DNA of 64,000 nucleotides from the NCBI RefSeq assembly GCF_004962245.1, contig NZ_SUHQ01000002.1, positions 186,001 through 250,000 on the forward strand, given 5' to 3'. This document shows, one piece after another, positions 5,157 through 16,502 of the stretch. This stretch comes from Mesorhizobium sp. Its GTDB lineage: Bacteria > Pseudomonadota > Alphaproteobacteria > Rhizobiales > Rhizobiaceae. The position numbers were made by a program, and so were the translations under genes. Within the stretch, counting starts at the first letter, position 1, and the number at the start of each line of letters is the position of its first letter. Under the pieces are notes generated by a model. It made no database searches. It was given only the letters and a program-made list of their open reading frames with translations, and was not told the DNA's origin.

Positions 5157-5972
5157 TCATGACTGAACCTTGGCTTTGACTGCCCAGGCTCTCGTTTTCA
5201 GGGGAATGGACCCGTCCTGGCCGCGCGGCAGGCTATCGCGGAGCCTCTCCATCAACCTCTGGCGAGCTGCGGGGGCGAGGCTCATGCAATAGCCGGGCGC
5301 CGGCCCTGCACCCAGGGTGAAGGGGTGCCAGTAGTCTTCAAAATCCTTGAAAACAGCCGGCATTTCAATCCGGGTGCAGTCGATGGAAACGAAGCCGGCC
5401 TGCTTCGCAAGGCTGGTCAATCCGTCTTCGGTGCAAAATGGAAAGCGTCTGTCCTCGGTAAGGTCGATGGCGCCGGGGTCAAGCGCCGTCGCGGCGGTCC
5501 AGAAGGCCCGCATGAATTCCACCCCGCCGCCGGGATAATCCCACACATAGAATCCAATCGTCGCTCCGCGGCGGGCCACCCGCCCCATCTCCGCGAGCGC
5601 CTTTTCCTTGTCAGGGATGAAGTTGAGAACAAGCGCCGACACGACCATGTCCTTGCTGCTCGATTCGAAAGACAACACCTGCGCATCACCAGCGAGAAAC
5701 TCGACACGTTTGTCCGGCACGTTTGCACGCGCCTTGGCGAGAAAACCCTCCGATGGATCTACGGACACCAAGCTCCTGGGGTTGCAACGCGCCAGGATGG
5801 CTGCGGATAGCGCCCCGGTTCCGCAACCTACCTCCAGCCAGTCCAGCCCCTCGGCCGGATCGAGCCAATCCAGGAACAGTGGAGCGATCTGACGGCTCCA
5901 TCGCCCCATATAGAGGTCGTAGCTATCCCCGGCCTGCCAAGCATCGTGACGCGCTGCCTCAGCCATCGCCAT
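5157..5972 (-). CDS. class I SAM-dependent methyltransferase
   Basis: The 271-residue protein has SAM motif I as WLEVGCGTGAL (residues 45-55), an acidic end of strand 2 (LVSVDPSEG), FLAGDAQVL and the post-motif segment VVSALVLNFIPDKEKALAEM. This is the methyltransferase-11/25 (UbiE-like) fold acting on small molecules. The C-terminal third is specific to this protein and presumably forms the acceptor pocket. No neighbour suggests a pathway, so the substrate is unknown. ATG at 5972 fits the fold; GGGAGGAGATGG lies just upstream. Confidence 0.88.
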   Translation of the reverse strand: MAMAEAARHDAWQAGDSYDLYMGRWSRQIAPLFLDWLDPAEGLDWLEVGCGTGALSAAILARCNPRSLVSVDPSEGFLAKARANVPDKRVEFLAGDAQVLSFESSSKDMVVSALVLNFIPDKEKALAEMGRVARRGATIGFYVWDYPGGGVEFMRAFWTAATALDPGAIDLTEDRRFPFCTEDGLTSLAKQAGFVSIDCTRIEMPAVFKDFEDYWHPFTLGAGPAPGYCMSLAPAARQRLMERLRDSLPRGQDGSIPLKTRAWAVKAKVQS

Positions 5973-15833: not shown

Positions 15834-15861
15834 AGCACGTGGCGACACTGGCTTTCGGCGG

Positions 15862-15882
15862 GGTAGTGTCTCAGTTTGAAAT
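15862..15882 (+). repeat. left 21-bp terminal inverted repeat
   Basis: Identical, in reverse complement, to 16312-16332. It contains the last codons and the TGA stop of the minus-strand membrane-protein gene. Confidence 0.85.
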
Positions 15883-16155
15883 AAGCGGAATGGTCAGCAC
15901 GACGACGACTTCGATGAAGGGGATTACCACGTAGATGGCAAGAAAGCCGGCAATCCACATTCCGATTTTGACCAGCCAGGACGGATGAGGGGTCGCCCCC
16001 CAAGCGAAAAATGCGCTCGCGACGCCCAAACCCAACGCGACAATGCCGATAACCGGAGACCGCGTCATTGGAAGCATTAGATCATCAAAAACAAGAAAGA
16101 TCGCGCTAATGAAGATTAGCTGGGCCGTGAGCCCGAATAGAAACGCGCGTTTCAC
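15871..16155 (-). CDS. small integral membrane protein carried by the inverted-repeat element
   Basis: A 94-residue, very hydrophobic protein with membrane segments at about 4-22 (FLFGLTAQLIFISAIFLV), 34-52 and 62-91, separated by short polar loops. The start is GTG at 16155 with only a weak GGGCGGG upstream. The last codons and the stop codon lie inside the left terminal repeat, so the gene evolved with, or was captured by, the element. No family is recognised. Confidence 0.6.
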   Translation of the reverse strand: MKRAFLFGLTAQLIFISAIFLVFDDLMLPMTRSPVIGIVALGLGVASAFFAWGATPHPSWLVKIGMWIAGFLAIYVVIPFIEVVVVLTIPLISN

Positions 16156-16311
16156 GCGGCCCGCCCGGTGCTATCTTTTATCGGCATCAGGCGACTGCTT
16201 TCGTTTTGTACGGCCCGCGTTTGTCCAGTTTGGGCGCAACTGCGTCCATCATGTATGCATTACGCTAAGCATATAGGAGTTCGGGCAGGATCGCGACAAG
16301 CGACGCGTCAA

Positions 16312-16332
16312 ATTTCAAACTGAGACACTACC
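16312..16332 (-). repeat. right 21-bp terminal inverted repeat
   Basis: Exact reverse complement of 15862-15882. The truncated glycosyltransferase fragment begins at its outer edge. Confidence 0.85.
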
Positions 16333-16502
16333 TTGGCCTGATGGTTCGAAAGGCGGAAGAAATTGCGCATGCCCTGAAGCGCCTGAAGGACGATCCGCAC
16401 TTGCGGGAACGCCTGGGTCGGGCGGCGCGAAAGCGGATAGAGAAAAATTTCTCGCTTGTCGCAGTCGCCGCCGCTCTCGATTGCTTGTTGACCAAGCGGT
16501 AG
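16332..16502 (+). pseudogene. C-terminal fragment of a family 4 glycosyltransferase
   Basis: The frame from the element edge reads GLMVRKAEEIAHALKRL, then KDDPHLRERLGRAARKRIE and NFSLVAVAAALDCLL before a stop at 16502. This is the standard last 50 residues of GT4 enzymes (the alpha-helical DP-LR--LG-AAR segment). The rest of the gene is absent to the left of the element, where the Wzt-like gene ends intact. The upstream part was probably deleted when the element inserted or recombined. Confidence 0.7.

Follow-up and report, generated by a model that had tools for sequence, protein, structure and literature searches.

A 471-bp inverted-repeat element of Mesorhizobium as a probable mobile insertion cassette of IS1-like origin

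How does an element of only 471 bp, with perfect inverted ends and no transposase gene, come to carry a reading frame that terminates inside one of its own ends? The question is raised by positions 15862-16332 of a 64,000-nucleotide stretch of Mesorhizobium sp. DNA (hereafter, the window), for which a sequence-only reading had offered two accounts: an element lacking a transposase and spreading a membrane protein, or a MITE that had captured a gene with its ends. The left terminal inverted repeat, GGTAGTGTCTCAGTTTGAAAT (15862-15882), and the right one (16312-16332) are complementary at 21 of 21 positions, just as had been described, and when as many as 3 mismatches are allowed, the terminal 21-mer occurs twice in the 64 kb, versus zero times in 100 dinucleotide shuffles. 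Read on the minus strand, the left repeat yields I-S-N-stop and closes the passenger gene (15871-16155, minus strand), which begins with GTG and encodes 94 amino acids with three predicted helices; the multi-span membrane ORF whose final codons and TGA lie in the left end (...ISN-TGA) was thus correctly recognized. Upstream of it are the remnant of an IS1-like transposase C-terminus, amounting to about the last 20 codons and lying in frame as a short ORF of its own (16177-16242, minus strand; coordinates set by hand), and a conserved right-end module comprising the repeat and some 65 bp, with the end ..GAACTCCTATATGCTTAGCGTAATGCAT (16245-16332, minus strand; inner limit set by eye). The element is present as a single copy in its source genome (G000). 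An Rfam scan gave no match, a promoter scan found none in the element, and the titles and abstract beginnings searched in the literature do not describe it; part of the repeat sequence did appear in one paper, on zinc-finger nucleases. Taken as a whole, with its directly visible and its inferred parts, the locus is very probably occupied by a mobile insertion cassette of IS1-like origin.

That the element arrived by insertion is indicated by comparison with related genomes. The same insertion is found in G091, where the element is 96% identical, the left flank is the same, and TTCGGCGG is present on both sides as an 8-bp duplication. In G207 (L113), by comparison, the glycosyltransferase gene continues uninterrupted across the site, with a single TTCGGCGG and no element, providing the empty site whose existence had been proposed as a check. 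The window retains the left copy of the duplication (15854-15861); its right copy is absent because about 143 bp next to the right repeat, beginning at most 1 bp from it, are gone relative to G091, and the 3' glycosyltransferase fragment that follows (16333-16502, plus strand) consequently lacks its element-proximal part. In G091, a different stretch of the same fragment is missing. M. tianshanense (L069, taken as G224) shares the left flank and the insertion point with the window, such that a single insertion with its 8-bp duplication is common to G000, G091, and M. tianshanense; in the latter, the cassette is broken at element position ~316 by other sequence. This break precedes the first codon of the passenger by roughly 22 bp, and the contig pieces concerned (L069/L124) apparently overlap by 7 bp. 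These alignments show that the element is a real insertion, and that the broken glycosyltransferase gene, at whose break point the element had been placed from the outset, is the product of insertion plus decay on both sides. The position of the element inside a broken gene might also suggest that its ends captured the passenger from the flanking glycosyltransferase/ABC locus in this lineage, an account rendered hardly credible by seven further, unrelated Mesorhizobium sites that have the same gene with the same end, and by an empty site that does not contain the gene.

The origin of the element is apparent from its relatives. The earlier statement that there is no transposase holds insofar as no transposase gene lies within the element, and fails insofar as tblastn revealed an 18-residue C-terminal remnant (residues 290-307) just upstream of the membrane gene. 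Relatives with the same ends and a full transposase do exist, as had been anticipated in the call for full-length parents. The parent transposase scores 29.3 bits against the Pfam IS1 family PF03400, above the cut-off of 24.1, and 70.3 bits against the NCBIfam IS1 model NF033558, below the cut-off of 100, and among 11 plasmid relatives four bear the annotation IS1 family; these matches place the parent, on sequence criteria, in the IS1-type transposase family. A first guess based on the ends, IS1595, was dropped, as the transposase scores far better with IS1. IS1 is itself much shorter than these relatives, which differ from it in being far longer and cargo-bearing, as well as in their NCBIfam score. 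A candidate relative from Aureimonas (L078) was discarded: its match covered 41 residues at 44%, lay in a phage-like region, and corresponded to none of the ORFs listed.

The family is widespread in the genus. The repeat (at most 2 mismatches, with a GGG variant counted) has at least one match in 110 of 144 genomes, and a transposase match with an E-value of 1e-10 or better is present in 67 of 144, often as fragments. G000 itself has only a transposase fragment with 147 residues matched in a draft assembly, and the cassette's present mobility is therefore doubtful. The two-ended elements examined were hand-picked regions among the matches listed, not a census; in these, perfect 8-bp target duplications flank 18 of 31, and a transposase is matched over 290 residues or more in 9, as a remnant only in 13, and not at all in 9. 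Three pairs within the 31 (L046/L047, window/L038, and L080/L084) resemble a single insertion represented in two genomes each, L056 was kept despite a doubtful pairing of its ends, and L032, the same element as L096, was left out; the ORF survey and the 30-element sets used below for the terminal-ORF counts and the right-end module omit L032 and L047. Statements on element contents refer to the ORFs listed, and family scans covered a manual selection of cargo proteins. Gene order in the relatives runs from the right-end module through cargo and transposase to an optional terminal gene and the left repeat. Of 30 elements, 21 have the module, 78-88 bp in length, at one of their ends (z above 5), although their cargo differs widely. 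These modules, including that of the window (16245-16332), contain a conserved CCGAACTCCTATATGCTTAGCGGAAAGCAT with inverted ATGCTT/AAGCAT, and in many a GGGAG-like stretch and then a start codon follow. By its appearance, the module is a possible promoter/operator, a suggestion to be set against the negative promoter scan of the window. Taken together, shared ends and the retained transposase C-terminus identify the 471-bp element as an IS1-like transposon reduced by internal deletion.

The passenger gene is not confined to this locus. It was found in 10 of 146 genomes of the genus, at 8 sites that have no left-flank match to one another, and in 7 of 394 genomes, including G000, by a family-wide profile search; the absence of any second copy, which had been named as grounds for abandoning the initial interpretation, is thus not what was observed. 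Neither is decay of the ORF in the other copies, since it is intact in all 15 of the copies judged (nine from the genus, four from the genus g98, G256, and G278; the gene of G069, split across two contigs, is outside this count and the dN/dS counts). The start codon is limited to GTG, ATG, and TTG across copies, with ATG in G108 at the place of the window's GTG. The suggested dN/dS comparison was carried out with the NG86 method, and of 33 pairs with dS above 0.4, 25 gave ratios of 0.11-0.24 and eight gave 0.29-0.49, seven of the latter involving G278. Counting against constraint, omega among the eight closest Mesorhizobium copies was 0.29-0.89 for 24 pairs out of 28, and the other four, all with dS of 0.05 or less, exceeded 1. 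On the whole there is good evidence for selection on the passenger gene beyond mobility. The ratios also bear on the prospect that the frame is a chance one in a young element, with its stop falling in the repeat by coincidence. Such an explanation would accommodate the omega values above 1 in recent pairs and the failure of the protein to match anything in Pfam, NCBIfam, PADLOC, the PDB, or phages; it is nonetheless highly improbable in the face of a frame that stays intact to dS above 1, of low ratios in most of the divergent pairs, of a restricted set of start codons, and of a gene that is kept where the repeats have decayed. The AlphaFold model of the protein (mean pLDDT 74) consists of three helices, and a Foldseek search of it against the PDB returned 0 matches at an E-value of 0.001 or below; therefore, no function could be assigned from the fold.

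A decayed cassette is found in a different genus, g98, in which 4 of 7 genomes have the passenger. By blastn, G519 matches positions 15870-16320 of the window at 82%, and G418 matches 15871-16298 at 74%. The region upstream of the gene, including the right-end module, matches in G519 with an E-value of 3e-28; in G418, the module matches over 44 bp at 82% (E-value 3e-8), and in G473 its match is without significance. All three genomes carry the passenger at one common locus; in a sister genome, G353, the flanks are the same but enclose 21 bp in place of 484 bp and no gene. The window flanks do not match this locus, and no terminal repeats were recognized there with up to 5 mismatches, yet omega among G519, G473, and G418 is 0.11-0.22. 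In two genera, at loci unrelated to each other, the short architecture is the same, and this is the best evidence here for the transposase-less form having moved. With an unrelated site, decayed ends, and a constrained gene, it is probable that the short form moved by means of a transposase supplied in trans and that the gene has been kept for its own sake. An added idea, that the 21-codon transposase remnant serves as a functional leader, was dropped, its start region being lost in G519.

The short forms of Mesorhizobium and g98 might instead be separate internal deletions, the gene having been delivered to each site by longer copies with a transposase. This scenario draws on the transposase remnants beside the passenger, which tblastn shows to range from 18 residues in the window and G091 to 128 in G069: seven Mesorhizobium copies (G001, G053, G060, G069, G104, G108, and G222) and that of G558 (L074 was taken as this genome) have longer remnants of 32-128 residues with differing breakpoints. 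It draws also on weak tree support (14-52) for the nodes grouping the short forms. Conversely, G418 aligns with the window across the deletion junction with gaps of just 1-2 bases, the spacing from module to start codon is similar (94 versus 99 nt), a single uninterrupted blastn match extends over the junction, and no well-supported node in the tree separates the g98 copies from that of the window. Independent deletion is accordingly considered rather unlikely. A further proposal is that the gene serves the element, for example by aiding transposition or protecting the element, and not the host. All nine Mesorhizobium copies in which the whole gene is visible do keep a recognizable left repeat, some with mismatches, as this proposal would predict; against it stand the g98 copies, where the gene is still constrained beside decayed repeats, and the finding that no intact transposase accompanies the gene in any copy examined, all of which makes it improbable.

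We therefore favor movement of the short cassette itself. The sequences show that an IS1-like transposon lost nearly all of its transposase, leaving both repeats, the right-end module, the last ~20 codons, and the membrane gene. The transposase of a related full-length element, as found in other Mesorhizobium, would act on both repeats in trans and thereby move the cassette. The shared insertion in the glycosyltransferase gene came first, with the window's loss beside the right end following later. The membrane gene would probably be transcribed from the right-end module and end in the left repeat, and it may benefit the host enough to persist after the cassette has become immobile. Of the two initial accounts, the transposase-less element spreading a membrane protein is well supported by the 8-bp duplication, the empty site, the unrelated sites, and the intact ORFs; the MITE with a captured gene finds no support as worded, the element being an IS1-like deletion derivative with a transposase C-terminus beside its gene.

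MITEs typically arise from insertion sequences by internal deletion, have no coding capacity, and are present in many copies. The window element is likewise short, with two inverted ends and a target duplication, in keeping with a published MITE account (PMC10969869), and it differs in having a conserved gene under purifying selection and one copy in its genome; ORF-bearing enterobacterial units offer a further MITE comparison (PMC2759123). A closer likeness is to mobile insertion cassettes, such as MIC231 of Bacillus cereus and the mic element of qnrD plasmids, which are described as having two IS-type inverted repeats, a target duplication, a gene, and no transposase, and as being mobilized in trans (PMC3913671). 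In the window element, IS repeats are present at both ends and are the same as those of relatives with a full transposase, there is an intact, constrained gene in place of a transposase gene, and the target duplication is a perfect 8 bp in the orthologous G091, the window having the left copy only. It differs from those cassettes through its IS1-like, as opposed to IS231-type, ends, its retained transposase C-terminal remnant, and a passenger that encodes a membrane protein and has its stop within the repeat (PMC3913671). The element thus fits a known kind, the mobile insertion cassette, built on an IS1-like parent and with mobilization in trans as a putative trait. The full-length relatives (2.8-4.1 kb), which hold a transposase and passengers between their repeats, resemble transporter IS (tIS), described as IS derivatives with passenger genes (PMC9330008). 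L048, L081, and L083 are of this type, unlike the transposase-free window element.

Less familiar are the terminal genes that end in the repeat or within 1 nt of it, and the defence-type cargo of the full-transposase relatives. The stop in the terminal repeat is a family feature. Read outward, the repeat contains ATT TCA AAC TGA in one frame, giving I-S-N-stop; the transposase of L081 itself terminates in this manner, as does an ABM-domain protein of L046. This last relative (L046:5951-6652, L047:6755-7456) is a 702-bp element with the same ends that encodes zinc-ribbon-like and ABM-domain proteins. A survey of 30 elements for outward ORFs of 90 or more codons ending at most 60 nt from an element end yielded 22, of which 12 use the repeat's stop, six have their own stop at most 1 base from its inner edge, and the remaining four stop 12-18 nt short of it. 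The first figure is partly expected, because any frame open to that point must end there, and it includes some ORFs that are homologous or probably spurious. The six with stops at the edge include HEC-09-like and Abi-like genes, and three are homologous NYN genes; they are located at L048:2101, L051:7041, L083:6761, L088:2410, L089:6108, and L090:5668 and are of at least three unrelated kinds. Terminal genes joined so tightly to the repeat point to gene capture as a testable step.

The company that the ends keep may give some indication of what the membrane protein does. In all nine examined elements with a long transposase (L048, L052, L081, L083, L088, L089, L090, L091, and L095), one match or more is of the toxin-antitoxin, Abi-like, or PADLOC candidate-defence type, a figure that covers these elements alone and refers to family names, not functions. 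The matches comprise HEC-09, HEC-04, RmrA-like M78/HTH proteins, Abi_2/PD-T4-5, Gp49-like, HigB-like, and PD-Lambda-2_B; that of L081 is to a helix-turn-helix model only (4.9e-8), and the Abi_2 score of L083 is just under Pfam's cut-off. HEC-09 is also matched by cargo of L051. Against the theme, short elements also carry ABM-domain and zinc-ribbon-like proteins (L046) or a GYD protein (L096), and no PADLOC family was matched by the window protein or by the cargo of L084, L087, L094, and L096. From where it lies and what its relatives carry, the membrane gene may also belong to the defence type; given the toxin-antitoxin, Abi-like, and candidate-defence genes of the relatives, the leading, if unproven, guess for its role is phage defence or exclusion. 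It is tempting to go further and to regard this IS1-like family as tiny vehicles for single defence-type genes, with a repeat that doubles as a stop, and the 94-residue protein as a new defence or exclusion protein, borne by a 471-bp cassette and domesticated in another genus; this broader view is speculative and, on balance, unlikely to be right in full. Were the gene a defence gene, single defence genes would be able to travel in elements of less than 500 bp with no transposase to flag them. Whatever its role, the natural series formed by a perfect-ended cassette, cassettes with longer remnants, and a dead cassette with a constrained gene separates selection on the passenger gene from selection on mobility.

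Two minor observations concern the relatives. In L079 (G222; 5531-5543), the outer 12-13 bases of the repeat are fused to the transposase gene at about codon 272-276, and at this fusion point the transposase gene of L089 has a repeat-like core, GTGTCTCAG; G222 is the only exact fusion case. That this internal core causes deletion breakpoints is offered as an idea, with about one near-match expected by chance on a hand estimate. A small protein that starts with MPTGPKGQ(K/R)RPADVIGNAVRVMRIATG, with no Pfam family matched by two of its representatives and no NCBIfam family by one, recurs toward the right-end module of many elements, at L048:5045-5281, L050:5973-6224, L081:3159-3398, L083:3041-3280, L088:5199-5432, and L089:2997-3254.
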